DNA from: Akkermansia muciniphila
GTDB taxonomy: Bacteria > Verrucomicrobiota > Verrucomicrobiia > Verrucomicrobiales > Akkermansiaceae
DNA: 32,846 nucleotides
Assembly: GCA_945873305.1 (NCBI GenBank)
Contig: CAMCCX010000027.1
Span: forward strand, 1-32,846
Reading direction: 5' to 3'
Of this stretch, positions 3,955 through 32,599 are shown in pieces. A model generated the notes under the pieces. The model saw nothing but the letters and a program-made list of their open reading frames with translations, ran no database searches and was not told the DNA's origin. Position 1 is the first letter of the stretch. Each line of letters opens with the position of its first letter. A program made the position numbers and the translations under genes.

Positions 3955-6900
3955 ATGAAACCGAAATTCCGAGTCTTTCTGCGTAAAAGCCTCCCCGCCC
4001 TGATTATAATTCCCGCGATGACACAAATGGCGCAAGCGGCTCCCATCGTCACCGCGCCCAACGGCAGCTTGATCGTCACTCCCGCGGACAACGGAGCGAA
4101 CCACATCATTGCGAACGGCGGCGTCTCGCCGATCGTGGAGATCAACCCCCTCACGATCCTTTCTGCGGACGGTGGCACCAATGGAATCAGCATCGCCGCG
4201 GCGGGCTATTTCGACCCCGCATTCGACCCCGCCAACCCAAGTGTTTTGTCCCAGATCCTGGGCGTTCGCAACCTTGGCTTCATCACCGGCGCCAACAACG
4301 GCCTGAATGCTACCGGCCAAACCATCACTTTCCACAACGCCGGCACGCTCACCGCTTTGGGCTCCAACGGCGTTGTCCTGCTGGGCAACGGCTCGGTGAT
4401 TGCCAACTCCGGAACCCTTAGCGGGGTTGATGGCGGCATTTCATCTCCTCTCTCCAACAATGTGTTGGTCCATAATACCGGCCTCATCGACGGCGACACG
4501 GACAATGACTTGCTCGGCAGCGGCATCGTTCTCCAGGACGGCGCGGTCATCGTCAATACCCTCGGCTCCATCACCGGGGCTGTGGACGGCATCCAGGTCC
4601 GCGATAACGGCAGCATCACGAACGCTCTCGGAGCGTCCATCATTGGTGACGATGATCTCTCAGGGGCCGGCAACGGAATCACCTTCCGCGATGACACGAC
4701 GCCGCTTAACACCGTTGCCGACATTCTCAACAAAGGCGGCATCACCGGCTTTAACGGCGCGAGCGTCGGCAATGGCGTGACGGTCCACAACCTGACCTCG
4801 TTCGATACTTTCGGCCCCATCGATGGCGGTGACATCACCGGTGCCGCCGACGGCATCGTTGGCGGATCTAACCTGACGGTCCGCAACGAGTTTCTCAGCA
4901 CGATCACCGGCACCACCGACGACGGTGTCGACGCCGGCGACTCTTTGTTGCTCGACAACCTCGGCAGCATCGCGGGCGGTCACCGCGGCGTGGAAGCTGA
5001 CGATGATGCCGAGATCTTCAATACCGGCGGCGGCACGATCACCGGCACGAACGGCGACGGGGTGAACGTGGACAACAACGGAGACATTACCAACGGCCCC
5101 GGGGCAACGATTTCCTCGGCCACCGAAGATGCGGTGGATCTGAACTACGGTTTCGTCGACAACGAAGGCACGCTCACCGGCGGTGCGGGGCTGGGTGACA
5201 ACGGCATCGAAGTCGACGGCGGCGGCGCGACCACCATCTCCAACACCGGAGGCATTTCCGCCTTCCAAGGCATCGCCATCAGCGGAGTCGCCATCGACTC
5301 GGTCACCAACAGCGGCACGATCACCGGCACCGGCGGCGTGGCCGTCACCACGGGCGATGGCGACGATGATGTGTTCCTTGACCTCGGATCGATCGTCACT
5401 GGATCGATCGACGGAGAAGCGGGAGCCGATTTCCTCACCTTTACGGATGGCAAGACCGTGCCACTCGGCATCAGCAACGAAGTGCATGGCAATGTCACCA
5501 TGGAGGAGATCTTCAAAGAAGGGACCGGCACCGCCTTCATCGGCACCAGCGGCGATCCGCTCCACACGGTTCTGACAGACACCATCAACTTGAATTCCGG
5601 CGGGCTTTACATCAATGGCACGGTTGATGGCATCCTTGCCGCCCAAACGACGATCTTTCACAACGGCACCGGCCTCGGCGGCACCGGAACGTGGGATGCC
5701 AACATTATCCTCGGCGTGGCGGGCGCCGGCATCAGTGCTGGCGCGACGCCGATCGACATCGACGATGGGGTCGAACCGCTTGACTCGATTGGCACGCTCG
5801 ACATCACGGGTGATGTCACCCACACCGCGGGCTCGTTCATCCGGTTCGACGTCGCGCCCCAGACCGCCCTCACTAACATTGATAGCAGCGATCTGATCAA
5901 TCAGTTCGGCGTCGGTAATGTTTATGATGTCAATGGAGCGGCCATCCGTATTTCGCCGACCAACATTAACAAAGTTATCAACAACGGCACATACACCATC
6001 GTGGACAGCGACGAGGCCATCGCTAACTTTAATCCGTTGGCAGCGGTTGGAGTGCAGTTTAACGACAATGTGGACGACGACGGACCGTTCTTCGCGAACC
6101 AAACCGGCTCGAACAACCTGAATCCCGTGCTGGTATCCGAATTCACCGAGCTGGGTCTCGCCGACTCAGGCACCAACCTGGTCGTCACCATCGAGCACAA
6201 CTTCTCGGATCTTGACGGGCTGACGTCCAACGAGTCTTCGTTAGGCGAGGCGATTGACCAATCGATCGGCTCCACAAATGACGACGTGCAGGACTTCATC
6301 GCCGCGCTGGACTATTCGGACCTTTCCACGGTTCAGGAAACCCTCGCAAGCCTGAGTCCGGACGGTTACCTGGCCCAAGGCGTTGCGGTGGCGAACAGCA
6401 ACTACCGTCTGCATCGCATGACGCAGGAGCATTTGGCCGCAATCCGTCGCGGCGGAGTGGTCGTCACCACGCCGGGCCCGCAAGATGCCAAGGGCGTGAT
6501 TTCCGCTCCGACCACAAAAACCAGCTCTGCCAATGCCAACGTCTGGGGTGCCTACTCGCATGACTGGCAGGACTACAGCGGAGATGGCTCTGTGAGCGAC
6601 TTCGATGGTGACACCGGTGCTTTCACCGCCGGCTTCGACTGGCGGGTGGCTCCGGCGTGGGTTTTGGGCATCGTGCTTGATGGCTCCTCAAGCGACTTCG
6701 ACGGGGATAACGGCGGCTCGGAAGTGGACAGCTTCCGCGGCGCGGTTTATGGCACTTGGGGCGAGCCGATGGGGCTCTATTCCGACTTCCTCCTCGGCTT
6801 TGGCTCTCACGACATGGACTTGTCCCGCAGCTTCGGCGGTATCTTGTCGGGCTTGGACGGTGACGGCAGCGCTGATGCCAGCAGCGTCCAGGCGCTGTGG

Positions 6901-7338
6901 ACGATGGGCTACAGCATGGGCAACGACAGTTTCAAGCACGGCCCGTTCGCCGGTCTTGAGTACCAAAACGTGGACGTCGACAGCTTCGAGGAAAGCGGCC
7001 CGCTGCCCTTATCGGTGGATAGTTATGATGTCGATTCGTTGCGCGCCCTGATTGGCTATCGTCTGGATGCCACTTATGACAAGGTCCGTCCGTATGCGTC
7101 GATCGCCTACGCCCATGAGTTTGAAGACGACGAAATCGATGCCGAGGCGGACTTCGCGGGGAATTCCTTCTCCGTGAATGGACCCGCGCAAGGCTCAGCG
7201 ATCCTGCTCACCGCGGGTGTCGGCTTCTCGCTGTCTGAGCGGCTGTCGATGGATGTTGGCTACCGCGGCGAAATCTCGGTCGAGGATGAAGGACTCGACA
7301 GTCACGGTGGTTCCATCGGTCTGAACTATTCGTTCTGA
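3955..7338 (+). CDS. Type V autotransporter with repetitive beta-helix passenger
   Basis: A 1127-residue outer-membrane protein. A signal peptide covers about residues 1-28: basic start, hydrophobic PALIIIPA core, AQA cleavage site. The passenger (about 30-850) is built of degenerate short repeats around N-x-G-x-I-T-G and D-G-I, as in right-handed beta-helix adhesins. It includes a haemolysin-like stretch (GDGDDDVF, then GEAGADFLTF). The region from about residue 861 to the end is an autotransporter beta-barrel (VWGAYSHDWQDYSG, later LSMDVGYRGEISVED) ending in GLNYSF, the C-terminal aromatic signature of outer-membrane barrels. The protein is strongly acidic (Asp/Gly/Asn-rich). The ATG lies in an A-rich leader without a clear Shine-Dalgarno. 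A TTGACA box is at 3906-3911 but no convincing -10 box. Likely a surface adhesin; substrate unknown. Confidence 0.92.
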   Translation: MKPKFRVFLRKSLPALIIIPAMTQMAQAAPIVTAPNGSLIVTPADNGANHIIANGGVSPIVEINPLTILSADGGTNGISIAAAGYFDPAFDPANPSVLSQILGVRNLGFITGANNGLNATGQTITFHNAGTLTALGSNGVVLLGNGSVIANSGTLSGVDGGISSPLSNNVLVHNTGLIDGDTDNDLLGSGIVLQDGAVIVNTLGSITGAVDGIQVRDNGSITNALGASIIGDDDLSGAGNGITFRDDTTPLNTVADILNKGGITGFNGASVGNGVTVHNLTSFDTFGPIDGGDITGAADGIVGGSNLTVRNEFLSTITGTTDDGVDAGDSLLLDNLGSIAGGHRGVEADDDAEIFNTGGGTITGTNGDGVNVDNNGDITNGPGATISSATEDAVDLNYGFVDNEGTLTGGAGLGDNGIEVDGGGATTISNTGGISAFQGIAISGVAIDSVTNSGTITGTGGVAVTTGDGDDDVFLDLGSIVTGSIDGEAGADFLTFTDGKTVPLGISNEVHGNVTMEEIFKEGTGTAFIGTSGDPLHTVLTDTINLNSGGLYINGTVDGILAAQTTIFHNGTGLGGTGTWDANIILGVAGAGISAGATPIDIDDGVEPLDSIGTLDITGDVTHTAGSFIRFDVAPQTALTNIDSSDLINQFGVGNVYDVNGAAIRISPTNINKVINNGTYTIVDSDEAIANFNPLAAVGVQFNDNVDDDGPFFANQTGSNNLNPVLVSEFTELGLADSGTNLVVTIEHNFSDLDGLTSNESSLGEAIDQSIGSTNDDVQDFIAALDYSDLSTVQETLASLSPDGYLAQGVAVANSNYRLHRMTQEHLAAIRRGGVVVTTPGPQDAKGVISAPTTKTSSANANVWGAYSHDWQDYSGDGSVSDFDGDTGAFTAGFDWRVAPAWVLGIVLDGSSSDFDGDNGGSEVDSFRGAVYGTWGEPMGLYSDFLLGFGSHDMDLSRSFGGILSGLDGDGSADASSVQALWTMGYSMGNDSFKHGPFAGLEYQNVDVDSFEESGPLPLSVDSYDVDSLRALIGYRLDATYDKVRPYASIAYAHEFEDDEIDAEADFAGNSFSVNGPAQGSAILLTAGVGFSLSERLSMDVGYRGEISVEDEGLDSHGGSIGLNYSF

Positions 7339-7370: not shown

Positions 7371-7402
7371 AGCCGCCGCCCTTGAACGGGCGGCGGCTTT
7401 TT
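7371..7402 (+). terminator. Rho-independent terminator after the autotransporter gene
   Basis: An 11-bp perfect GC-rich stem (AGCCGCCGCCC at 7371-7381 with GGGCGGCGGCT at 7388-7398) closes a six-base TTGAAC loop and runs into a five-T tract. It starts 32 bases after the autotransporter stop, so it should end that transcript before carB. Confidence 0.95.
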
Positions 7403-21772: not shown

Positions 21773-21876
21773 GGAGCGCCGACATCCTGTCAGCTGTTTC
21801 CGGCCGACATTCTGTCGGGCGGAGGCCGGCGGACAGGATGTCCGCCGCAAGTAGCGTTCCGAATGAACGCGCTCCT
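21773..21876. repeat. REP-like palindromic cluster, copy 1 (upstream of the RAYT)
   Basis: A 104-base unit bounded by GGAGCGC and its complement GCGCTCC. It contains three short hairpins built on the same core: GACATCCTGTC, GACATTCTGTC and the inverted GACAGGATGTC, each with six- to eight-base arms and a three-base loop. It matches copy 2 at 22511-22614 in the same orientation at 98 of 104 positions. It lies 41 bases before the RAYT start codon. Confidence 0.9.
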
Positions 21877-21917
21877 TTGGGCTTGATCGGGATGGCCATT
21901 TTCTTTTACGTGTTCAC

Positions 21918-22511
21918 ATGAACTATTTGAATCCTGAAGCGGACATTCAAAAGTCGGGCAGCGAGTTGCCTCATTGGCAGCAGGGTGGCGCGTTGCAGTT
22001 GGTGACATTTCGCTTGGGTGACGCGCTGCCGCTCTCGCTGATGAGAGAATGGCAGGAGGAACGGATCCGATGGATGGCAGCGCATCCGCAACCCTGGTCG
22101 GTGGAAGTGGGTGCGGAGTATCACCGGAATTTCAGTGCGAAAATCGAGCGCTGGCTGGATCAAGGCATGGGCTCATGTCTGTTCGCAGATCCGGATGCCC
22201 GGCAAGTGCTGGCGGATTGCCTGATGCGTTTCGAAGGCGAGCGTGTCTTCCATCAGGCGTGGGTGGTCATGCCGAATCATGTGCATGTGCTTTTCAGCCC
22301 GAAGGTGCCGATGGAGAAGCTGGTCCAGGCGTGGAAAGGGCATTCTGCCAGACTCCTGGGAAAGGGGCCGATCTGGCAGCGCGACTATCACGACACGATG
22401 ATTCGCGATGAGGATCACCACGCGAACGTGCTGCGCTACATCCGGCGGAATCCGCTGAAGGCGAAACTGGCGGAAGGGAAATTCACGCTCTGGGAGAGGA
22501 GCGGCGGTTAG
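21918..22511 (+). mobile_element. REP-associated tyrosine transposase (RAYT, Y1/HUH family)
   Basis: A 197-residue Y1 transposase of the IS200/IS605-related REP-associated class, single-strand nucleases that recognise palindromic REP hairpins. The typical start ELPHWQQGGALQLVTFRLGD is present. The metal-binding HUH motif is MPNHVHV (H121 and H123) and the catalytic tyrosine is probably Y157 in WQRDYHDTM. The C-terminal NVLRYIRRNPLKA segment is also typical. All catalytic residues are intact. It is flanked by two directly repeated 104-bp REP clusters, and its TAG stop shares its last base with copy 2. RAYTs are usually single-copy and possibly domesticated. Codon use resembles the neighbours. 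Confidence 0.95.
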
Positions 22512-22614
22512 GAGCGCCGACATCCTGTCGGCTGTTTCCGGCCGACATTCTGTCGGGCGGAGGGCGGCGGACAGAATGTCCGCCGCAAATAGCGTTCAAA
22601 ATGAACGCGCTCCT
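22511..22614. repeat. REP-like palindromic cluster, copy 2 (between RAYT and alaS)
   Basis: The second 104-base copy of the palindromic unit, in the same orientation as copy 1, with six mismatches. Its hairpins are clearer here: GCCGACA/TGTCGGC around TCC, CCGACA/TGTCGG around TTC, and GGCGGACA/TGTCCGCC around GAA or similar. Its left end overlaps the RAYT stop codon and its right end overlaps the alaS stop codon (complement of 22613-22615). It could serve as a bidirectional transcription barrier between the convergent genes. Confidence 0.9.
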
Positions 22615-25516
22615 AAGCTCCCAATTTCGCGGCAGCGGCGGCTTTGATTTCTTCCAGCTTGGAGCGGTCAGGCGCGGCGCCGCGGGCTTGGTCGGGCTTG
22701 CCGCCGCCTTTGCCGCCGGCGAGGGCGGCGAGGTCCCGGAGGAGGTCGCCGGCTTTGAGGCCTGCGGCTAACGCATCCGGGCCGCAGTGGGTGGCGAGGT
22801 GGAGTTTCTCGCCGTCGTCCACGACGAGCAGGGCGGGGCCGGCGAACTGCTTTTTCTTGAGGCCGTTCTGGAGCCCCTGGAGCAGCGAGGCGTCGGACTC
22901 GAAGGCGACGATGATGGGTTTTCCTAACGCGATGAGCTCGGCAAGCGACTCGTCGGCGAGGGCGGCGGCTTGGGAGGATTGGATCTTCTTGATGCGCTTC
23001 TCGGCCTCGATGGCGCCGGCTTGCGTTTCCTCAAGCGTGCGCTGGCCGTGGGCGAAGGTGGCGTTGATCTGGGCGATGTCGGCGCGTTCGACGAGCATGG
23101 CTCCCATGATGTGCGGGAAGTCGTTCACGGTGACGGCGTCCTCACCCAGGGATGTTAGCTTTTCGTTGGCGGCGTGGAGTTTGGCGCGGGCGGCTTTGAG
23201 CTCGTGGTCCCATTTTTCGGCAACTTCGTTGAGATGGTTCCACGCGGCCTCGCCACAAACGGCTTCGATGCGGCGGACGCCGGAGGCGATGGCGCCTTCG
23301 GATTTGATTTTGAAAAGCCCGATCTCGCCGGTGTGGCGGACGTGGGTGCCGCCGCAGAGTTCCTGCGAATAGCCGTTGAGTTGGTTAGGCCGGCCGCCGA
23401 TCTGGACGACGCGGACGACGTCGCCGTATTTGTCGCCGAAGAACTGCATGATGTCGGCGCGGCCCTTGATGTCGGCGTGTTTGACTTCGGTCCAGCTAAC
23501 GGAGTCGTTGGCCTGGATGGAGGCGTTGACCTTTTCCTCCATCGCGGCGAGTTGCTCGGGCGTGACGGCGGCGCTGTTGAAATCGAAGCGCAGGCGGTTT
23601 TCATCGACCGAGGAACCCTGCTGCGCGGCGTCCGCGGAAACGATTTCATGCAGCGCCCAGTGGAGAAGGTGGGTGGCGGTGTGGTGGGCCTCGATCGGGC
23701 GGCGGCGGGCGGCGTCTAACTTGAGGGTGACTTTGTCGCCGACGGCAATTTGAGATTGAGGGATGATGTGGGCGCGGGCTTTGCCGATCTGTTGGGTGCC
23801 GGTGATTTCGATCTGGTTGTCGTCGGTGTCCATCACGCCGGTGTCGCCGGCCTGGCCGCCCATTTCGGCGTAGAAGACGGTCTTGTCGGTGATGACGAAA
23901 AGCGCGTCTTCCTGCGGGTGGATTTCGAGGATGGTGGCTTCGACCGAGTCGTTCTCAAAGCCGGTGAATTCGGTGACGGCCTCGGTGGAGATGTCGAGGG
24001 CGCGGACGATGTTGGATTTCTGGGCGGCGCGGGAGCGTTCTTGCTGCTGCTCCATGAGTTCATTGAAGCCCGGCATGTCGACTTCAAGTCCTCGCTCCGC
24101 GCAAAGCAGTTCAGTCAGATCGATTGGGAAGCCATACGTGTCGTAGAGAAGGAATGCATTCACCCCGGAAAACTGCCGGCTGATACGCAGCAGCTCGTCA
24201 TTCAGAGTTGAATCTGCCTTTGGGGATTTATTCAAAACGCTGGCATATTCTGCATGATTGCTGAGCAAGGCGCTGACCATAGACTCGAATTCTTTTAGCC
24301 CACGATCCAATGTCTGATTGAAGCTGGTCTCTTCCTGCTCAAGCGTTTGCCGGACCACGTCCTGGCGGTTTTTCAACTCGGGGAAAACTCCGCCCATCTC
24401 GGCGACAAGTGTTGCCACCAGCGCGCCGAAGAACGGCTTTTCTCCGGAGAAACCGAGCTGGCGGCCATACCTAACGGCGCGGCGGAGGATGCGGCGGAGG
24501 ACGTAGTTGCGGCCGTTGTTGCCGGGCATGATGCCGTCGGCGATGGAGAATGACAGGGTCCGCAGGTGGTCGGCGATGACTCGGAAGGCGATGGCGGTTT
24601 TCATTTCCTCGGTGAAGAGGGAACGGTCGGCGCCGAGCTCGGGGTAGATGTTGACGTAGGTTTTCCCGCTGAGTGCTTCGAGCTTGCGGAAGATCGGTTG
24701 GAAGACGTCGGTGGCGTAGTTGCTAGGCTTCTTGGAGAAGTCGGTGAAGCCGTTGGTGTTCTGGATGATGGAGCAGGCGCGCTCGAAGCCCATGCCGGTA
24801 TCGACGTGTTTGGCGGGGAGCTCGCGGAAAGTGCCGTCGGCCTCGGCGTTGTATTGGATGAAGACGAGGTTCCAGATCTCGATGCAGAGGTCGGAGTCGT
24901 TGTTGACGAGATTGCGGCCGGTGACGGGGTTGCCTTCGGGCGTTAGGTCGACGTGGAGTTCGGAGCAGGGGCCGCAAGGGCCGGTTTCGCCCATCATCCA
25001 GAAGTTGTCCTTCACGTTGCCGTGGACGATCTGGACGGCGGGATCGCAGCCTTTGGAAACGAAGAGGGCGGCCCAGATGTCGTAGGCTTCCTGGTCGAAG
25101 TTGCCGGGATCGCCTTCTTTCGGCGCGTAAACGGAGGCGTAGAGTCGGTGGGCGGGGAGGCCCCAGCGTTCGACGACCAGCTCCCAGGCCCAGGCGATGG
25201 CTTCCTTTTTGAAATAGTTGCCGAACGACCAGTTCCCGAGCATTTCGAAAAACGTGTGGTGATAGGTGTCGTAGCCGACATCCTCGAGGTCGTTGTGTTT
25301 GCCGCCGGCGCGGATGCATTTTTGCGTATCGGCGGCGCGCGGTGGCGAGTAGGGGGCCTTTTCAACGCCGAGGAAATACGGGACGAACGGGTTCATCCCG
25401 GCATTGGTGAACAGCAGGCCGAGCGACTGCGGCAGCAGCGAGGCGGAGGGGACGATGGTGTGCTGTTTCTCCTGGAAGAAATCGAGGAAGCTTTGGCGGA
25501 TCTCGGCGGAAGTCAT
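22613..25516 (-). CDS. alaS: Alanyl-tRNA synthetase
   Basis: AlaRS charges tRNA-Ala and removes mischarged Ser or Gly. From the ATG at 25516 it has 967 residues, longer than the 876 of E. coli. The class II catalytic core shows SFGNYFKKEA, GETGPCGPCSELHVD and GMGFERA, followed by the tRNA-recognition helices (NYVLRRILRRAVRYGRQLG). The editing domain has HTATH and CGGTHVRHTGEIG, supplying the zinc-binding His/Cys set. The C-terminal C-Ala domain ends in the Gly/Lys/Ala-rich tail AAAKLGA. Part of the extra length is a ~30-residue insert before LLYDTYGFPIDLTEL, in slightly AT-richer DNA. The ATG was chosen over an upstream in-frame extension because MTSAEIRQSFLDFF is the family N-terminus. A hairpin plus T tract precedes the start. 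Confidence 0.98.
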   Translation of the reverse strand: MTSAEIRQSFLDFFQEKQHTIVPSASLLPQSLGLLFTNAGMNPFVPYFLGVEKAPYSPPRAADTQKCIRAGGKHNDLEDVGYDTYHHTFFEMLGNWSFGNYFKKEAIAWAWELVVERWGLPAHRLYASVYAPKEGDPGNFDQEAYDIWAALFVSKGCDPAVQIVHGNVKDNFWMMGETGPCGPCSELHVDLTPEGNPVTGRNLVNNDSDLCIEIWNLVFIQYNAEADGTFRELPAKHVDTGMGFERACSIIQNTNGFTDFSKKPSNYATDVFQPIFRKLEALSGKTYVNIYPELGADRSLFTEEMKTAIAFRVIADHLRTLSFSIADGIMPGNNGRNYVLRRILRRAVRYGRQLGFSGEKPFFGALVATLVAEMGGVFPELKNRQDVVRQTLEQEETSFNQTLDRGLKEFESMVSALLSNHAEYASVLNKSPKADSTLNDELLRISRQFSGVNAFLLYDTYGFPIDLTELLCAERGLEVDMPGFNELMEQQQERSRAAQKSNIVRALDISTEAVTEFTGFENDSVEATILEIHPQEDALFVITDKTVFYAEMGGQAGDTGVMDTDDNQIEITGTQQIGKARAHIIPQSQIAVGDKVTLKLDAARRRPIEAHHTATHLLHWALHEIVSADAAQQGSSVDENRLRFDFNSAAVTPEQLAAMEEKVNASIQANDSVSWTEVKHADIKGRADIMQFFGDKYGDVVRVVQIGGRPNQLNGYSQELCGGTHVRHTGEIGLFKIKSEGAIASGVRRIEAVCGEAAWNHLNEVAEKWDHELKAARAKLHAANEKLTSLGEDAVTVNDFPHIMGAMLVERADIAQINATFAHGQRTLEETQAGAIEAEKRIKKIQSSQAAALADESLAELIALGKPIIVAFESDASLLQGLQNGLKKKQFAGPALLVVDDGEKLHLATHCGPDALAAGLKAGDLLRDLAALAGGKGGGKPDQARGAAPDRSKLEEIKAAAAAKLGA

Positions 25517-25527
25517 GGCGTGGTGGG

Positions 25528-25553
25528 AAAAAGTTGCGGCGAGACGCCGCAAC
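25528..25553 (-). promoter_or_regulatory. REP-type hairpin with T tract in the alaS leader (possible attenuator)
   Basis: Read on the minus strand, arms GTTGCGGCG and CGCCGCAAC (9 bp, perfect) enclose a TCT loop and are followed at once by TTTTT. The run ends 11 bases before the alaS ATG. The shape is that of an intrinsic terminator placed directly upstream of the gene. The core GCGGCGTCTCGCCGC is identical to the palindrome at the left end of the RAYT element inside ispG, so it may be a solo REP of that family. Confidence 0.7.
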
Positions 25554-25681
25554 CACTTGAGCGCGAAAAGATGCAGGAGGGGCGGGGGCGGTGTAAAGCC
25601 TCGCGGGTGGTCAGTTTGCGAAAGCGGCGCGGCGGTTTTTTCGGCTGGCGGCCCGCTGGGCGGGAAACCAATCTGCGCGCG

Positions 25682-26476
25682 ATGACCACTGATGAATCCT
25701 GGAAGCTCGAGCGCGACGCGTTTTTAGCCATGTCGCCGCCGAGGCAAGTTCCGCAGTCGATGAGCCGGGCCGTGGTATCATTCAAGAGCCAATGGCTGCT
25801 GATGATTTTCGGGATGATATTCCTGCTGATGGGCTTGGGCTTCAGTTGGGCTTTCGTGCCGCGCCATCTGCTGCGGGAGCGAAAGCTCGAGCAAGGCCCC
25901 TCGCTCACGGTGCCGGGGAAAATCCTGTCGGTGGAGGAGACCAATCTTTCCATCAATGAAGTGAAAGTCAGGGAATACCAGTTTTCCTATCAGCCTGACT
26001 CCGGCGGCAGCCGGCAAGGCACGGCCTACACCACCGGCGGGCGGTGGCGGGAGGGCGCGACGGTGCGCGTGCGTTATCTCGAAGCGGATCCCGCGCTCGC
26101 CGTGCCGGAAGGCGCGAGGCTGGGCAAGTCGTCCGCAGGCGCTTTGTTTGTCCTGTTATTTCCTCTCGTGGGCGGGGGGATTTTGATCGGTTGTCTTTAC
26201 AGCCGGCAAACCAAGAAGCGCCTGCTGCGGCATGGCTGGGCGAGCAGCGCGACCGTGACCGCACTGGAAAAGACGTCCACGGAGGTCAATGGCCAACACG
26301 TTTTCAAAATCCACCTCACCTTCATCGATGACGGGCGCGTCGTGGTGAAACGCAGTTACGACGCGGCGGAACTCGCGCTGGCCGAGGAAGCCGTGAGTTC
26401 CTCGCGGCCGCTGCAAATCCTTTACGATCCGAACAAGCCGAAGCGCCTGCTTTTCCCGGAAACCTGGAAATCCTGA
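25682..26476 (+). CDS. DUF3592 domain-containing membrane protein
   Basis: A 264-residue protein with two membrane segments (about residues 38-58 and 152-173) and two exposed beta-rich stretches. Between the helices is a DUF3592-like region (TVPGKILSVEETNLSINEVKVREYQFSYQ, later GATVRVRYLEADPALAV). After the second helix a related pattern recurs (LLRHGWASSATVTALEKTSTEVNGQHVFKIHLTF), ending in LQILYDPNKPKRLLFPE. The ATG at 25682 follows a non-coding stretch divergent from alaS. It ends two bases before the convergent AlkB-type gene. Molecular function of the family is unknown. Confidence 0.85.
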   Translation: MTTDESWKLERDAFLAMSPPRQVPQSMSRAVVSFKSQWLLMIFGMIFLLMGLGFSWAFVPRHLLRERKLEQGPSLTVPGKILSVEETNLSINEVKVREYQFSYQPDSGGSRQGTAYTTGGRWREGATVRVRYLEADPALAVPEGARLGKSSAGALFVLLFPLVGGGILIGCLYSRQTKKRLLRHGWASSATVTALEKTSTEVNGQHVFKIHLTFIDDGRVVVKRSYDAAELALAEEAVSSSRPLQILYDPNKPKRLLFPETWKS

Positions 26477-26478
26477 GC

Positions 26479-27090
26479 TCACTGCCGGAGCATCGACCGG
26501 AAAGTTAGATTGATCCGCGGGGTTGTGATTTTCTTGGATTTCGGGACGCAGTGGAGCCAGTGGCTCTGGGTGCTGCCCTGCATGACGAGCAGGCTGCCGC
26601 TCTCCAACAGCACGGAAATTTTCTCCTCGCCGCGCTTGTGCTTCAGGCGGAATTCCCGCTCCGCGCCGAGGCTGACGGAGGCGATGCCGCTGTCCTTGCC
26701 GAGCGATTTCTCGTCGTCGCTGTGCCAGGCCATGCCCTCGTTGCCGTCGTGATAGAGATTGAGCAGGCAGGAGTTGAAGGTGCTGCCGGTGAGTTGCTCG
26801 ACAAGCGACTTGAGCGCGGCGAGTTCCGGAGTCCAGGCGAGGGCGTGCTTGGTGGTGCCGGAGTAGGTGTAGGAGAAACTCGAATCGCCATACCAAGCGA
26901 CTTTGCGGGCGGTGACGATGTGCTTGCCGAAAATAACAGCCTCGTCGTTCTTCCACGGGATTTCCCGCAGCAGCGTCTCGTAGTAGCGGCGGGTGTCCGC
27001 CGGACTGAGGATCGGGCCGTGGTAGTTCACCGTGCCGTCGCGGGGCAGCAGGTTGGCGGCGGGATCGTGGCCGAAGAGGTCCATGATCAT
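26479..27090 (-). CDS. AlkB-family 2-oxoglutarate/Fe(II) dioxygenase
   Basis: A 203-residue oxidative DNA/RNA dealkylase of the AlkB family, which removes 1-methyladenine- and 3-methylcytosine-type lesions. Landmarks in order: NLYHDGNEGMAWHSDDE with iron ligands H123 and D125; SLGAEREFRLKHK; LLVMQGSTQSHWLHCVPK with distal ligand H180; and PRINLTFR, supplying the 2-oxoglutarate-binding arginines R192 and R198. The layout is that of the ALKBH2-like bacterial type. The start could be at 27090 or the next Met two codons on. It is followed upstream by a toxin-antitoxin pair and an O6-alkylguanine methyltransferase on the same strand, suggesting an alkylation-repair neighbourhood. Confidence 0.94.
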   Translation of the reverse strand: MIMDLFGHDPAANLLPRDGTVNYHGPILSPADTRRYYETLLREIPWKNDEAVIFGKHIVTARKVAWYGDSSFSYTYSGTTKHALAWTPELAALKSLVEQLTGSTFNSCLLNLYHDGNEGMAWHSDDEKSLGKDSGIASVSLGAEREFRLKHKRGEEKISVLLESGSLLVMQGSTQSHWLHCVPKSKKITTPRINLTFRSMLRQ

Positions 27091-27124
27091 TTCAAGGCTC
27101 GGTGGTTATCAAGGCACCATCGAC

Positions 27125-27433
27125 TTACGGATCACGGTTTTCAAGGTCCGAGGATTTCAAAAGTCGCTCGCTCCTCATCACATAAACGATCAAAACGAGA
27201 TCACCTTCCAGACGATAAAAAATTCGCAACGGGCCGACAACGAGATGCCTGTAGCGGGAGTCCGGCAGGTCGTGAGGGACAGGACACATCTCCGGAAATC
27301 CCCGCAGCAGTTCGGCCTTGGCAAAAACCTTCTGGATCAAACGGCGTGCGGCTGAGGGATCATCGAGGGCGATATAATCCGCGATCTGTTCAAGATCCTG
27401 AAGGGCGGGTTCCGACCAGATCAATCGAGCCAT
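27125..27433 (-). CDS. RelE/ParE-family toxin
   Basis: A 102-residue type II toxin-like protein. It starts ARLIWSEPALQDLEQIADYIALDD, the standard N-terminal helices of the ParE/RelE fold. It continues through RRLIQKVFAKAELLRGFPEMCP and the beta strands YRHLVVGPLRIFYRLEGDLVLIVYVMRSER, with the strand pattern and C-terminal basic residues typical of the family. Its ATG overlaps the end of the antitoxin gene by 13 bases, so translation is coupled and antitoxin comes first. Whether it blocks translation (RelE) or gyrase (ParE) cannot be told from sequence. Confidence 0.92.
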   Translation of the reverse strand: MARLIWSEPALQDLEQIADYIALDDPSAARRLIQKVFAKAELLRGFPEMCPVPHDLPDSRYRHLVVGPLRIFYRLEGDLVLIVYVMRSERLLKSSDLENRDP

Positions 27434-27678
27434 CGCGACATTCGGGTTTTCGCTTCATCATGGGTCAAGGTCCGTTTTTCCTGAATTGCCTTCTCGCCCT
27501 TTGCGATTCCCTCAAGCAGCCCGATTCGCGACTGCATCGCCTCATAGGTGGATACGTCCACCAGATAGGCGGCAGCCAAGCCGTGCTGGGTGATCAAAAC
27601 GGGCTCTTTTTCATCGGCGATCCTCGCGATTAACTCGGTGGCTTTCCTTTTCAGTGTGGTCACCAATTCCGTTCTCAT
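27421..27678 (-). CDS. Phd/YefM-family antitoxin
   Basis: An 85-residue antitoxin-like protein. The N-terminal DNA-binding Phd/YefM pattern is LVTTLKRKATELIARIADEKEPVLITQHGLAAAYLVDVSTYEAM. The C-terminal part (EKAIQEKRTLTHDEAKTRMSRWL) should be flexible and wrap the toxin. It precedes and overlaps the toxin gene, the normal order for a self-repressed operon. No strong Shine-Dalgarno is visible before the ATG at 27678, and only 29 bases separate it from the ogt stop. Confidence 0.92.
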   Translation of the reverse strand: MRTELVTTLKRKATELIARIADEKEPVLITQHGLAAAYLVDVSTYEAMQSRIGLLEGIAKGEKAIQEKRTLTHDEAKTRMSRWLD

Positions 27679-27707
27679 GCGGTGACACTAAAATGCCACT
27701 CATGGTT

Positions 27708-28211
27708 TCACAACGATTTTTTGCCCTCGCGATCCAAGAGCGCGCGTTTGCGCGCCACGCCCCAGCGGTAGCCGGAGAGATTGCCGTCGCTGCGGACCAC
27801 GCGGTGGCAAGGGATGGCGATGGCGATGGCATTCGCGGCGCAGGCTCCGGCGACGGCGCGCACGGACTTGGGGCTGCCGATTTTTGCGGCGACTTGCACG
27901 TAGCTCAGCGTCGAGCCGGCGGGGATTTCGCGCAGCGCCTGCCAGACGCGTTGTTGGAACGCGGTGCCGCGGAGGTCGAGCGGGAGGGCGAGCTCGCTGG
28001 CGGTTTCAATGAAGGCGAGGATTTGCGCGAGGGCGGCATTTCCCTCGGTCAGCCGGGCTTTGGGGAATCTCCGCTGCAGTTCGGTGACTAGCAGCTCCCG
28101 GTCATCGCCAAGCAGAATGCCGCAGACGCCCTTTTCCGAGGATGCGGCGAGCACCAGGCCGAGGGTGGATTTCCCCACGGCGTGGCGGATCACTTCGTTT
28201 TTCGCTGTCAT
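27708..28211 (-). CDS. ogt: Methylated-DNA--[protein]-cysteine S-methyltransferase
   Basis: A 167-residue suicide enzyme that moves O6-alkyl groups from guanine to its own cysteine. The active-site motif IPCHRVVRSDGNLSGYRWG places the acceptor at C135. The upstream helix-turn-helix (FQQRVWQALREIPAGSTLSYVQVA) inserts into DNA. The N-terminal domain (EVIRHAVGKSTLGLVLAASSEKGVCGILLGDD) resembles the equivalent part of Ada, but there is no Ada regulatory zinc domain, so it works as a stand-alone Ogt. It is divergent from ispG with 92 bases between starts and upstream of the toxin-antitoxin pair and the AlkB-type gene. Confidence 0.95.
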   Translation of the reverse strand: MTAKNEVIRHAVGKSTLGLVLAASSEKGVCGILLGDDRELLVTELQRRFPKARLTEGNAALAQILAFIETASELALPLDLRGTAFQQRVWQALREIPAGSTLSYVQVAAKIGSPKSVRAVAGACAANAIAIAIPCHRVVRSDGNLSGYRWGVARKRALLDREGKKSL

Positions 28212-28303
28212 CGGTTCGGTTTACACGGGTGCCAGCGGCAAACGAAGGATGAAACACGCAACCGTTGCCGGGGCAAGATTTCTCGTTTATATCCCAAGCA
28301 GAA

Positions 28304-30862
28304 ATGAATTCACCCGCCCTGCGCTACTGCCCGGACCTGTTGCATTATTCCCGCCGGATGACCCGCGAGGTCATGGTCGGAAATGTCGGCGTCGGCGGCG
28401 GCCACCCGATCCGCGTGCAGTCGATGATCACCTCTGACACGCGCGACACGCCGGCCTGCGTCGCCGAAGTGCTGGGATTGGCGGAGGCCGGCTGCGAAAT
28501 CGTGCGGATCACCGCGCAGACGAAAATCTACGCCGCGAACCTGGAAAACATCGCCCGCGAGGTGCGCGCGGCGGGCTGCCAGGTGCCGCTGGTGGCGGAC
28601 ATCCATTTCAAACCCGACGCCGCGATGGAAGCCGCGAAGTGGGTGGAAAAGGTCCGGGTGAATCCGGGCAACTACGTGGATAAGAAAAAATTCGAGATCC
28701 GCGAATACAGCGATGGTCAATACGCCGAGGAACTCGAGCGCATCCGCGACGAGTTCACGCCGCTGGTGATGCTGTGCAAGGACCTCGGCCGGGCGATGCG
28801 GATCGGCACGAACCACGGCTCTCTCTCCGACCGCATCATGAACCGCTACGGCGACACGCCGCTCGGGATGTGTGAGAGCGCGTTGGAGTTCGCCCGCCTC
28901 GCCCGGGAGAACGACTATCACAATTTCGTTTTCTCGATGAAGGCGTCCAACCCGAAGGTGATGATCGAGGCCTATCGCCTGCTCGTCGCCCGGCTCGATG
29001 CGGAAGGCCCGGACTGGAACTATCCGATCCACCTCGGCGTGACCGAGGCGGGCGACGGCGAGGACGGCCGCATCAAGAGCGCCATCGGCATCGGCTCGTT
29101 GTTAGCCGACGGCATCGGCGACACTATCCGCGTCTCGCTCACGGAGGACGCGATTTACGAAATCCCGGTCGCGCAGGCGCTGGCCGCGCCCTTCAACGCG
29201 CGCAGCAAAGTTGAAGGTGGCTGCGGCGTCTCGCCGCAGGCCGTGTTTGAGGCGTCTCGCCGCAAGTCCCTCTCCGAAGACGCCAAAACCACCCGCATCG
29301 ACTGGGAAAACGTCGAAAAATCCTCCGCTACTTTCCTCCCCCACTGGAAACAAGACGGCGCGACCTACGCCGTCACCTTCCGCCTCGCCGACTCCCTGCC
29401 TGCCGAATTCATCACAAACTATCAAAACCATCGCGATCAACTTCACCAAGAGCTCGACTCCCTCACCCATTCCGGCGACTCCCGCAGTTCTCTGGAAAAA
29501 ATCACCGCCCTGCGCAAACAACTCACAGACCTGCAAGCCGACTGGATCGACCCTGAGTTGGATCGCGGCCACGGAGCTTGCATTTTTAAAGACGCATCAC
29601 TCGCCGCGTTGGTGGCGGACGCGATGGCTCATTTCGATGGAAAACGCTACGAGCTGCTCGCCTGGTGCGTGATGCCCAACCATGTGCACGCCGTTCTCAG
29701 ACCGGCGGAAGGAGAGTTGTTGGAGAAAATCCTCCATTCATGGAAAAGCTTTACTGCGCATGAAATCAACAGGCGCTTGGGGACCAGCGGGGCTGTCTGG
29801 CAGAAGGAAAGTTACGATCATCTGGTGAGGGATGGTGAGGATTTGAGAAATCAGGTGGGGTATGTGATGAGGAATCCGGTGAAGGCGGGGGTGGGGGATT
29901 GGCGGTGGGTCGGGTGCGTTTATGAGGAACTCGCTGCGGGACGCAGCGAACACGGCCTGCGGCGAGACACCGCAGCCACCCTCGCGCCTGCGGCGCTCGC
30001 TGAAGATTTCGTTCCCTCTTACGATCCGTTCTCCTATGAAAAACGCGCCAGCTCCGTGCTCACCCTCATGGGCCACGAGCTCGGCGGCGAGAAGACGGTG
30101 CGCGTCTTCACCACCCAGGCACGCTGGAACTCCATTGCTCACAAAATCGCCGGCATGGGCGATTTCAAGCCGGAGATCATCCTCGAAAAATCCGGCGTCG
30201 TGGAAGTCGATCCGCGCGACGAGGCCGCCGTTTCCGAGATCAATTCCCAGCAGGAAGCCCGCCTCGTCACCGTCGCTGACGGCCTCGATCTCGAAGTCAT
30301 CCACGCCTTCCGCCAGCTTGCTTTCCGCGTCGATCCGCGGCATCCGATCCTTTTAAAAGACACGCTCCATCCGCCTGTTGGAGAAACGGATTTCATCGCC
30401 GCGCTGCTGCCTGCCGCGCGGAACATCGGCTCTCTGCTCTGTGACGGCATCGGTGACGCGGTTCTGGTGAGAGGCGAAACCGCGCCCGGCCAGTCGCTGC
30501 GGCTCGCCTATAACATTCTGCAAGCCGCCGGCACCCGCATCTTTAAAACCGACTACGTCGCCTGCCCGAGCTGCGGTCGCACGCTCTTCAACCTCCAGCA
30601 CACCACCCAGAAAATCCGCGAAGCCACCGGCCACCTCAAGGGCGTGCGGATCGCCGTGATGGGCTGCATCGTCAACGGCCCGGGCGAGATGGCGGACGCG
30701 GACTTCGGCTACGTCGGCGGCGCGCCTAACAAAATCAACCTTTACGTCGGCAAGACCGCCGTGAAGTTCAACATCCCGGAAGCCGAGGCCGTCGCGCGCC
30801 TCACCGACCTCATCCGCGAGCATGGAAAATGGGTGGACGCCCCCCAACCTGCGAGCGTATAA
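28304..30862 (+). CDS. ispG: 4-hydroxy-3-methylbut-2-en-1-yl diphosphate synthase (IspG) interrupted in frame by a RAYT
   Basis: IspG reduces methylerythritol cyclodiphosphate to HMBPP in the MEP isoprenoid pathway. The frame from ATG 28304 gives 852 residues. Removing residues 305-559 (the inserted transposase) leaves 597, the size of long three-domain IspG proteins found in Chlamydia, Bacteroidetes and plants. The TIM barrel is residues 15-304 (GGGHPIRVQSMITSDTRDT; VADIHFKPDAAMEA; KVRVNPGNYVDK; IGSLLADGIGDTIRVSLTEDA). After the insert come the middle domain (about 565-740) and the [4Fe-4S] domain, with CPSC, then GCIVNGPGEM supplying three Cys ligands and probably Glu. All family motifs are intact, so a working enzyme is plausible if the insert folds independently. 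clpS follows 11 bases after the stop. An upstream TTG at 28265 is unlikely as start. Confidence 0.93.
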   Translation: MNSPALRYCPDLLHYSRRMTREVMVGNVGVGGGHPIRVQSMITSDTRDTPACVAEVLGLAEAGCEIVRITAQTKIYAANLENIAREVRAAGCQVPLVADIHFKPDAAMEAAKWVEKVRVNPGNYVDKKKFEIREYSDGQYAEELERIRDEFTPLVMLCKDLGRAMRIGTNHGSLSDRIMNRYGDTPLGMCESALEFARLARENDYHNFVFSMKASNPKVMIEAYRLLVARLDAEGPDWNYPIHLGVTEAGDGEDGRIKSAIGIGSLLADGIGDTIRVSLTEDAIYEIPVAQALAAPFNARSKVEGGCGVSPQAVFEASRRKSLSEDAKTTRIDWENVEKSSATFLPHWKQDGATYAVTFRLADSLPAEFITNYQNHRDQLHQELDSLTHSGDSRSSLEKITALRKQLTDLQADWIDPELDRGHGACIFKDASLAALVADAMAHFDGKRYELLAWCVMPNHVHAVLRPAEGELLEKILHSWKSFTAHEINRRLGTSGAVWQKESYDHLVRDGEDLRNQVGYVMRNPVKAGVGDWRWVGCVYEELAAGRSEHGLRRDTAATLAPAALAEDFVPSYDPFSYEKRASSVLTLMGHELGGEKTVRVFTTQARWNSIAHKIAGMGDFKPEIILEKSGVVEVDPRDEAAVSEINSQQEARLVTVADGLDLEVIHAFRQLAFRVDPRHPILLKDTLHPPVGETDFIAALLPAARNIGSLLCDGIGDAVLVRGETAPGQSLRLAYNILQAAGTRIFKTDYVACPSCGRTLFNLQHTTQKIREATGHLKGVRIAVMGCIVNGPGEMADADFGYVGGAPNKINLYVGKTAVKFNIPEAEAVARLTDLIREHGKWVDAPQPASV
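29216..29247 (+). repeat. Left 32-nt inverted repeat of the ispG RAYT element
   Basis: This repeat begins GGTGGCTGCGGCGTCTCG and matches the reverse complement of 29949-29980 at 31 of 32 positions. It contains a hairpin with arms CTGCGGCG/CGCCGCAG around TCT. A second, slightly imperfect hairpin with the same GGCG-TCT-CGCC core follows at 29247-29265. The core is also found in the alaS leader. Confidence 0.93.
29949..29980 (-). repeat. Right 32-nt inverted repeat of the ispG RAYT element
   Basis: This is the mirror copy of the left repeat with one difference, which breaks one base pair of its hairpin. Immediately inside it, at 29932-29948, is a second hairpin with seven-base arms CGCTGCG/CGCAGCG around GGA. 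Each end of the element therefore has two consecutive palindromes, like a paired REP unit. Confidence 0.93.
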
Positions 30863-30873
30863 AATACGATCCC

Positions 30874-31155
30874 ATGGCCGACACCGACACGCTGACGCGC
30901 ACCGAGGAAGCGATCTCGCTCGACGCTCCGTGGAACGTCGTCGTCCACGATGATCCGGTGAATCTCATGGGTTACGTCACCTTCGTGCTGATGAAAATTT
31001 TCGGCTACGAGAAGAAGAAAGCCGACATCCTGATGATGCAAGTCCACCGCCAAGGCCGCTCGATCGTCTGGTCCGGCGAGCGCGAAAAGGCCGAGTTCTA
31101 CGTCCAGCAGTTGCAGTCCCACCAACTGAAAACCTCCTTGGAGAAAGCCGAATGA
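30874..31155 (+). CDS. clpS: ATP-dependent Clp protease adaptor ClpS
   Basis: ClpS delivers proteins with destabilising N-terminal residues to ClpAP or ClpCP. The 93 residues include a flexible acidic N-terminus (1-18) and the core NVVVHDDPVNLMGYVTFVLMKIFGY. The LMMQVHRQGRSIV helix has H58 matching the N-degron-contacting histidine of E. coli (H66). D26 and D27 match the pocket acidic residues, while the preceding Asn of E. coli is His here (H25). The ATG at 30874 starts 11 bases after the ispG stop, and the gene ends in an ATGA overlap with the DUF2017 gene, so all three genes are probably co-transcribed. The DPVNLM form resembles actinobacterial ClpS. Confidence 0.95.
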   Translation: MADTDTLTRTEEAISLDAPWNVVVHDDPVNLMGYVTFVLMKIFGYEKKKADILMMQVHRQGRSIVWSGEREKAEFYVQQLQSHQLKTSLEKAE

Positions 31156-31628
31156 AAGCGATGCCCACTCTCGAAGGCGGCCTGCGGATCGACGCGGAAA
31201 GTCCCAACGACTGGGCGGTGCTCCGCTCCATCGTCGCCGATGCGGGCGCGACTAACGGCGTCGATCTCGCCAGCCGTCTCGGCGCGCTCATCAGCGAGGA
31301 AGCCGGCTCGGAGGACTGGCACGAATACGTCGTCCCGGATTTGCGCGAGGGTTTTCAAGACGACCTGGCGCAAGTCGGCGCCAACATCGAGTCCGCGATT
31401 TTCGAGGTCGATGGCGCTGCCGGCCCTGTCTGGATCAGCCGCGCCGACGTCTTCCCGTGGTACAGCGCGCTCAACCAGGCCCGGCTCTCGTTAGAGGAGG
31501 TTTTCCACTTCGGTCCGGACGAGAACATCGACCCCGCCAGCTATCCACCCGCCATGCGCGCCGCCTACATCCGCACCCGGTTCTACGGCACCATCCAGGA
31601 ATTGCTGCTGGACCATGTGATGCGTTAG
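31152..31628 (+). CDS. DUF2017-like protein paired with ClpS
   Basis: A 158-residue acidic, mostly helical protein. Its C-terminal half, with WYSALNQARLSLEEVFHFGPDENI and a closing TRFYGTIQELLLDHVM, resembles the DUF2017 family. That family is typically encoded directly after clpS, as in Actinobacteria. The gene overlaps clpS by four bases, a strong sign of a shared role, perhaps tuning ClpS or Clp protease substrate delivery, but no biochemical function is known. The family call is from pattern and context. Its stop codon overlaps that of the convergent glycosyltransferase gene. Confidence 0.75.
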   Translation: MKAMPTLEGGLRIDAESPNDWAVLRSIVADAGATNGVDLASRLGALISEEAGSEDWHEYVVPDLREGFQDDLAQVGANIESAIFEVDGAAGPVWISRADVFPWYSALNQARLSLEEVFHFGPDENIDPASYPPAMRAAYIRTRFYGTIQELLLDHVMR

Positions 31629-32599
31629 TCCCGGGCGATCAATTCCCTGACCGCCTCGAAAACGGCTTCCGGGGTCAAATCCGCCAGCTTTCCGCCGGGC
31701 GCGACGATGGACGCGGTGCGCGGCGAGCCCGGCGGCCAAGGTCCGAACCGCGCGGGCGAGGTGGGTCCGAAAATCGCCAGCACCCGGTTCCCGACGGCGG
31801 CGGAGAGATGCATCGGCCCGCTGTCATTGCCGATGAAAACCGAAGGCTGGCGGGCCAGTTCGATCATTTCATCGAACGGACAACCCGTGAGATTGAGGAA
31901 GCGCCCCTCGGGAATCGGGAAATCCGGGGCAGCCGACTGGCCTGCGCACCAAGCAACCCGACTGTTCGGTATCTGTTCGAGAATGAGCCGGGTGAGCGGT
32001 CCGAACTTCGGCCATTCCTTTTCCGCGCCGCGGCTGTCGGTGAAAATCACGAAGCGCCGCAGCGGATCACCCTCGAAAAACGCCTTCCAGGGAAATTCAG
32101 GTCCAGTCCGCAGTTCGAGCGGAATGGAAACTTCCTCCTCGACGCCGAGCGTCCGCGCGAATTCCTGAAGCACCGGAATGGCATGGTGCGGTCCTTCTCC
32201 CGCAGGCAGTTTCACCTTGCGGGAAAAAAGCCCCGCGCCCTCGCGGCTGTCGCGCCGCCCCCATTTCACCGGGGACTTCGCCGCCGCCGCCATCAGCCCG
32301 GAACGCAGCAAACCCTGCATGTCCCAGACCGCGTCGAAATTTGCCGCGCGCAGCGTTTTCATGACATCAAGAATGCCGCGCAGGCCGTTCTTCCGCTGGA
32401 AATGAATCACCTCGTGGACAAACGGCGCCGCCTCGACCAGCGGCGCGAAGCGGTCCCGCGCCACCCACGTGATCCGGCACTCCGGAAAGCGCCGCGCCAC
32501 CGACTGAATCACCTGCAGTCCGTGGACGATGTCGCCAAGCGATGACGGCTTGATGACCAGCAAGCTGCGTGGATTAGGGTTGCGGGGCGTCTTCGGCAT
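31625..32599 (-). CDS. Glycosyltransferase family 9 (ADP-heptose:LPS heptosyltransferase-like)
   Basis: A 324-residue GT-B fold enzyme. It starts with SLLVIKPSSLGDIVHGLQVIQSV, the GDIxH signature of WaaC/WaaF-type heptosyltransferases. It continues with FDAVWDMQGLLRSGLM and has the C-terminal nucleotide-sugar site FIGNDSGPMHLSAAVGNRVLAIFGPTSP, ending with a FGPWPPGSP segment. The family adds heptose or related sugars to lipopolysaccharide core at the inner membrane. The gene is divergent from a DUF4254 gene (59 bases between starts), an association often seen with LPS sugar transferases. The exact donor and acceptor cannot be told. Confidence 0.93.
   Translation of the reverse strand: MPKTPRNPNPRSLLVIKPSSLGDIVHGLQVIQSVARRFPECRITWVARDRFAPLVEAAPFVHEVIHFQRKNGLRGILDVMKTLRAANFDAVWDMQGLLRSGLMAAAAKSPVKWGRRDSREGAGLFSRKVKLPAGEGPHHAIPVLQEFARTLGVEEEVSIPLELRTGPEFPWKAFFEGDPLRRFVIFTDSRGAEKEWPKFGPLTRLILEQIPNSRVAWCAGQSAAPDFPIPEGRFLNLTGCPFDEMIELARQPSVFIGNDSGPMHLSAAVGNRVLAIFGPTSPARFGPWPPGSPRTASIVAPGGKLADLTPEAVFEAVRELIARD

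Follow-up and report, generated by a model that had tools for sequence, protein, structure and literature searches.

A GTGG-headed REP element in the leader of the alanyl-tRNA synthetase gene of Akkermansia muciniphila and some of its relatives

Intrinsic terminators and attenuators present a GC-rich stem and then a T-run before a gene, a build shared by the palindrome described here, which stands before the alanyl-tRNA synthetase gene alaS. The AlaRS of Escherichia coli attaches to a palindromic site in the promoter of its own gene. The alaS leader studied here is unlike known attenuators in that no leader peptide, antiterminator or T-box was detected in it, and its geometry is absent from relatives. 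Closer likenesses are found among REP elements. In the available portion of PMC3733652, which treats GTAG-type REPs, the GTAG-20 family of Opitutus terrae is mostly GTGG-headed, and it resembles the alaS element in its short palindrome immediately preceded by a tetranucleotide, for which GTGG is one option, in its verrucomicrobial host, in REP-flanked RAYTs and in copies located within and between genes. This likeness is one of description; the REPs of that text lie predominantly downstream of coding regions, whereas the alaS copy occupies a 5' leader. REPtron Sm of Stenotrophomonas maltophilia, as presented in the accessible part of PMC8266576, is likewise a perfect 16-nt palindrome split by 3 nt with a tetranucleotide directly before it; its head is GTAG and its loop GCT, whereas the alaS REP has a GTGG head and a TCT loop.

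Palindromic repeats inside housekeeping reading frames are represented by the Rickettsia palindromic elements and the in-frame REPs of O. terrae (PMC3733652, available portion). The elements reported below are similar in this respect but differ in that whole RAYT-carrying elements lie in frame in AlaRS, IspG and MetH. According to the excerpts available from PMC6006769, REPs occur in frame within tnpAREP genes, and a few unexpectedly long TnpAY1 proteins were discarded and ascribed to gene fusions or annotation errors; such fusions may therefore have been noticed before. Among the papers listed in a literature survey of titles and abstract openings, with subscription journals and preprints mostly outside it, there was no report of in-frame RAYTs inside essential genes and none of a REP as an alaS attenuator.

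The stretch of DNA analysed, referred to as the window, comprises 32,846 nt of an A. muciniphila contig (CAMCCX010000027.1). The features around the start of alaS are as follows:

22613-25516, minus strand: alaS, alanyl-tRNA synthetase, 967 aa, without an embedded RAYT in the window genome (Pfam tRNA-synt_2c, tRNA_SAD, DHHA1)
25528-25532, minus strand: T5 run directly 3' of the REP stem, read from the sequence
25533-25553, minus strand: 9-bp hairpin as first described, perfect stem, -14.7 kcal/mol
25534-25556, minus strand: REP element, GTGG head, 8-bp stem and 3-nt TCT loop, single-hairpin form, 2 mismatches to the 23-mer family consensus, both within one compensated pair
25568-25597, minus strand: putative alaS promoter (TTTACA, 18 nt, CATCTT), a block conserved upstream of alaS in relatives
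25682-26476, plus strand: divergent gene for a DUF3592 protein (Pfam)

The minus-strand hairpin at 25533-25553 consists of the stem arms GTTGCGGCG and CGCCGCAAC with a 3-nt loop. An earlier sequence-only reading had described a 9-bp stem followed by five Ts before the alaS start, and this description proved accurate, with the alaS ATG at 25514-25516 and 11 nt between the T5 and the ATG. It is refined by the REP unit proper at 25534-25556 (minus strand), which has an 8-bp stem; a ninth pair arises where the flanking C at 25533 meets the final G of the head. As expected of a REP, the GTGG tetranucleotide (25556-25553) stands directly before the stem, and the order towards alaS is GTGG, 8-bp stem with TCT loop, T5, 11 bases and ATG. 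An in-frame TTG at 25552 was considered as the alaS start and is unlikely, because the conserved MT(S/A)-EIR-SF of relatives begins at the ATG at 25514-25516.

The related elements in ispG are located as follows:

28304-30862, plus strand: ispG reading frame of 852 aa that includes a RAYT (Pfam GcpE and Y1_Tnp; Foldseek)
29217-29239, plus strand: left terminal REP of the ispG-embedded RAYT, exact consensus
29957-29979, minus strand: right terminal REP of the same RAYT, inverted, 1 mismatch

The ispG RAYT is flanked by inverted terminal copies of the alaS-type REP. A 15-base core has the same letters at 25536-25550 (minus strand) and at 29223-29237 (plus strand, within ispG), and the two differences between the alaS REP and the ispG copy amount to one compensated pair (C-G to T-A). 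The core matched the window 20 times at up to 3 mismatches, against 6.6 expected, with 0 of 100 shuffles as high, and the genome 12 times at up to 1 mismatch (reversed control 1). With up to 3 mismatches allowed, the 23-mer with the GTGG head matched the genome 10 times and its reversed control 0 times. A chance origin of the alaS palindrome is unlikely because of these shuffle counts and of the genome counts against reversed patterns, and the assignment of the palindrome to the ispG-RAYT family of REPs, together with the core in common, is thereby upheld. Of the 73 genus genomes, 58 hold GTGGCTGNNGCGTCTCGCNNCAG with no more than 1 mismatch, and the control is 0 in every table row. Relatives often carry the REP as a double hairpin, and the alaS copy of the window is the single form. 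The alaS palindrome is a true REP in an unusual place, before an essential tRNA-synthetase gene; judged from the sequence, it is a non-autonomous copy of a GTGG-headed family whose putative transposase lies in ispG.

Leaders were compared in a genus set of 73 genomes, in which alaS was matched in 68 and a leader with a start was readable in 65, the window genome (G000) included; the other 8 comprise 5 without a match and 3 without the N-terminus. A sigma-70 consensus scan of 22000-32000 gave a single match, located elsewhere than at alaS, and conservation of the upstream block was therefore used instead. The block CTTTAC-N18/19-CA(T/A) precedes alaS in 34 of 65 genomes (33 of them listed), and CTTTAC occurs in 36 of 65 alaS upstream stretches versus 11 of 63 coding control stretches; by conservation only, the block is taken as a putative alaS promoter. 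Between it and the ATG, a family REP was identified in 11 of the 65 leaders (G000, G003, G004, G013, G022, G026, G027, G028, G036, G062 and G070), 10 of them at up to 4 mismatches (mean of 0.0 in shuffled leaders) and G036 at 5. In all 11, the head points to the promoter-like block. The leaders of G056 and G072 match the REP only at 6 mismatches, which shuffled leaders reach in 2.8 of 65 cases on average, and these matches are remnants at best. A copy in G034 (4 mismatches) was rejected as a leader REP since it lies on the opposite strand and upstream of the block. Some relatives have alaS leaders too short to hold such a hairpin.

The REP head follows directly after the CATC/CAAC of the -10-like hexamer in G062, G036 and G027 and begins about 11-19 nt past this hexamer in the remaining REP leaders; more than one insertion or later indels are therefore needed. 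On a tree of N-terminal alaS DNA, used for counting changes and with 25 of its 61 inner forks open, the leader-REP label requires 3 changes, whereas shuffled labels need 10.3 on average and reach so low a number in 0 of 500 cases. The full-length AlaRS tree sets the REP carriers G022 and G062 apart from the other carriers. The leaders of G004 and G022 were observed to be nearly identical, with their AlaRS proteins apart on the full-length tree. On such sequence comparisons, alaS looks mosaic in the genus. Outside the genus, a leader scan of 80 named alaS loci (78 with a readable start) at up to 4 mismatches, a threshold that misses weaker copies such as L091 = G036, found no REP beyond the genus; the 2 matches among those 78 loci are genus genomes already counted (L095 = G022 and L102 = G028).

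Site occupancy was compared for 88 of the 92 REP matches of G000, G003, G004 and G070 (4 of G003 left out), grouped by their flanks with one-sided flank matches accepted. Of the 56 resulting site groups, 38 are confined to a single genome, 10 are shared by two genomes and 7 by three, and 1 is present in all four. The single fully occupied group is the alaS leader, the most widely occupied site of its REP family in the four genomes compared, in a comparison that somewhat favours alaS because its flanks match easily and the genomes are incomplete; absence at other sites is less certain because their flanks are harder to match. Within 12 of the 17 other shared site groups, all members agree in their variable stem letters. 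The stem letters of the alaS leader differ in all four genomes, yet they pair (with one G-U in G004 and one in G070).

Pairing was counted in nine rows for the 11 genomes, G013 being omitted because its stem has a different register and G026 and G028 sharing a row because their letters are identical. Among the 72 cells of these nine distinct stems, 94.4% form pairs and 10 have both sides changed; the covariation score reaches 0.43 (0.18 in shuffles). Each of these three values exceeds those of all 500 shuffles. Two further measures, the number of pairs with changes on both sides (3) and that of further pair types (7), were not above shuffles (226 and 293 of 500 as high), and unpaired stem cells are present in the leader REPs of G036 and G027. 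The stem pattern at alaS fits either selection for the hairpin or repeated replacement by other family members, and family subtypes match the variant stems seen there. Folding z-scores, listed for 26 of the 65 leaders (exact block, at least 30 nt; G013 not included, G056 and G072 classed as without a REP), averaged -3.2 with a REP (n=10) versus -0.9 without (n=16). Several REP-less leaders (G033, G041, G039 and G052) lie near z -2 and contain short hairpins unrelated to the REP, so that a hairpin may have a more general role in these leaders. The sequence-only reading had proposed conservation before alaS in relatives as a check on the hairpin, and the outcome goes against a regulated attenuator: a REP is present in 11 of 65 leaders and a terminator-scoring REP stem in 1 of 65. 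A mobile palindrome may have been recruited at alaS, as that reading suggested, with re-insertion as the alternative.

Terminator-like sites were scored with a d'Aubenton-Carafa-type d (cut-off 0). The alaS REP, a GC-rich stem leading directly into a U-run, scored d = 17.7; on the two strands of the 32.8-kb window, just one further site exceeds 0. The window also contains the following feature:

7372-7397, plus strand: strong terminator-like hairpin, d = 53.8, behind ORF 3955-7338, by the terminator score

Judged from its translation, ORF 3955-7338 looks like an autotransporter. When the 65 leaders were scored from -120 to +20, only G000 showed a REP stem above 0; the one other positive score belongs to an unrelated hairpin of G027 at about -113. 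Scores below 0 were obtained for the REP leaders of G022 (-1.1), the sister species G004 (-10.7), G070 (-18.3) and G028 (-46.3), and the remaining REP leaders in the 65-leader scan have no scorable REP stem with a T-run. T-runs of 4-6 within 25 nt of the ATG were found in G013, G017, G018, G027, G028, G039, G056, G067, G070 and G072, none of them directly behind a REP stem; the T-run may therefore belong to the leader itself, with the stem adjoining it by chance. Across the four genomes, 1 of 88 REP copies has T4 or more in the 16 nt past the REP, namely the alaS copy of G000. The terminator look of the alaS REP is peculiar to this species.

RAYTs were also identified in frame inside essential proteins of the genus. 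Among 30 ispG loci, 24 IspG fusions were aligned (loci L177-L202), and they show no variation at the two HUH histidines, at the tyrosine or in the NP motif. The model of the window IspG fusion has a mean pLDDT of 62.7 and a pTM of 0.38, a moderate to low quality, with residues 321-540 at 67-89 per block (pLDDT) between poorly predicted stretches; Foldseek with this model returned IspG structures and the REP-bound TnpAREP 4er8 (E 8.7e-7). In AlaRS, an embedded RAYT was found in 18 of 58 proteins covering the site, in frame at about residue 410-447 (for example L052:1001-4435, plus strand). These belong to two subfamilies (13 and 5), carry the HUH motif in 18 of 18 cases and have terminal palindromes that would be translated in frame, with GGGGAGCACACGCG-like or GGGGACCACACGCG-like ends in 13 of the 18. 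The sisters G042, G020 and G055 have an empty site, the second subfamily and the first subfamily, respectively, at the same codon. In 8 genome pairs, dN/dS was 0.10-0.26 in the RAYT part and 0.03-0.12 in the AlaRS N-terminus, values that indicate purifying selection on the transposase part of these fusions. A sequence search with the AlaRS RAYT of G003 matched 4er8 weakly (E 0.0035).

MetH contained an in-frame RAYT in 5 of the 5 loci read (L234, L235, L237, L238 and L243; 6 fetched, L236 omitted). Locus L235 has two RAYTs in one frame of 1425 aa, and Pfam recognised both the MetH and the RAYT parts in the one MetH fusion scanned. With AlaRS, IspG and MetH, at least three essential or central enzymes host related RAYTs at fixed interdomain sites. 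In the window genome, a further RAYT stands outside any such protein:

21918-22511, plus strand: second, separate RAYT directly behind alaS, within 21778-22621

It has palindromes of another family (GGCGGACAG-ATGTCCGCC) at both ends, and the alaS stop falls in an arm of an imperfect inverted repeat beside it.

The account that we favour, with a probability of about two in three, is a passive-type REP insertion in the alaS leader that was later kept, worn or replaced and has a mild constitutive effect. It builds on the observed family membership, position, orientation and distribution of the leader REP and on a terminator geometry not common to relatives. The REP would have entered the 5' leader, between the promoter-like block and the ATG, in the ancestry of a genus subgroup, and would since then have been kept, worn down or replaced by other family copies, which would explain different but mostly paired stems in related species. 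In G000 the stem end adjoins a T-rich stretch near the start codon, hence the terminator-like look. Provided that the block acts as promoter and transcription covers the hairpin, the likeliest effect would be a modest one, exerted constitutively through a stable hairpin close to the start of the alaS mRNA and perhaps through some early termination. Against passive insertion, full occupancy, one orientation and compensated stems are also expected under hairpin selection, and the terminator score does pass in G000.

That score speaks for an intrinsic attenuator, which the sequence-only reading had suggested; in such a device, polymerase coming from the upstream block would stop at the T-run and controlled read-through would set the AlaRS supply. 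The 9-bp GC-rich stem followed by T5 does give terminator geometry here, so this part of the proposal stood; the geometry has no counterpart in any of the other 10 REP leaders, the sister G004 included, and relatives have T-runs without an adjacent REP stem. Only about 11 nt, with no ATG, separate the putative -10 from the REP, which leaves no room for a leader peptide or an antiterminator, an argument that holds only if the conserved block is a real promoter. An Rfam search of 25400-25800 gave no match, T-box included, and upstream of the hairpin no alternative structure, leader peptide or ligand-binding leader was found. Intrinsic attenuation is quite improbable to us, and a regulated attenuator at alaS appears unlikely from the sequence; a constitutive partial terminator in this one species is possible. 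The same hairpin might instead be selected without termination, the subgroup keeping a stable 5' hairpin on the alaS mRNA, supplied by REPs, that may serve stability, start-site access or as a protein site. Four different, mostly paired stems in four close species, the full occupancy of the site and the z-score difference, with unrelated hairpins near -2 in several REP-less leaders, speak for this. It is nevertheless rather unlikely, given the unpaired cells in G036 and G027, the chance-level remnant at most in G072 and G056, and the leaders of several relatives that are too short for it; re-insertion of other family copies also accounts for the stem changes. Control by an embedded transposase, with the RAYT domain of AlaRS or the RAYT in ispG binding the leader REP, is highly improbable. 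Leader REP and AlaRS RAYT do occur together in 4 genomes (G003, G004, G026 and G070), but the leader REP occurs without the AlaRS RAYT in 6 (G027 being unreadable there) and the AlaRS RAYT without the leader REP in 14, so that no association is seen, and the AlaRS of the window genome has no RAYT at all. Other palindromes flank the AlaRS RAYTs, and the site that these recognise is therefore probably different; the leader REP as an operator for RAYT-AlaRS was set aside on the missing co-occurrence and the different palindromes. The ispG RAYT is a possible binder of the leader REP.

A wider reading, which we consider unlikely, is that essential genes of the genus, alaS among them, are standing homes for REPs and RAYTs. 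Complete RAYTs, terminal palindromes included, would be translated as additional domains within AlaRS, IspG and MetH and be protected by the need for the host protein, and the leader REPs would be kept and exchanged as a functional hairpin through which the expression of the synthetase is set. One leader position in several species, with stems that change and yet mostly pair, offers a natural test of the use of a selfish palindrome. If translated as fusions, the in-frame transposases would represent an intein-like persistence route for a REP transposase, and the reason for RAYT maintenance would become directly testable. Both the retention of the hairpin and the in-frame transposases deserve experiments.
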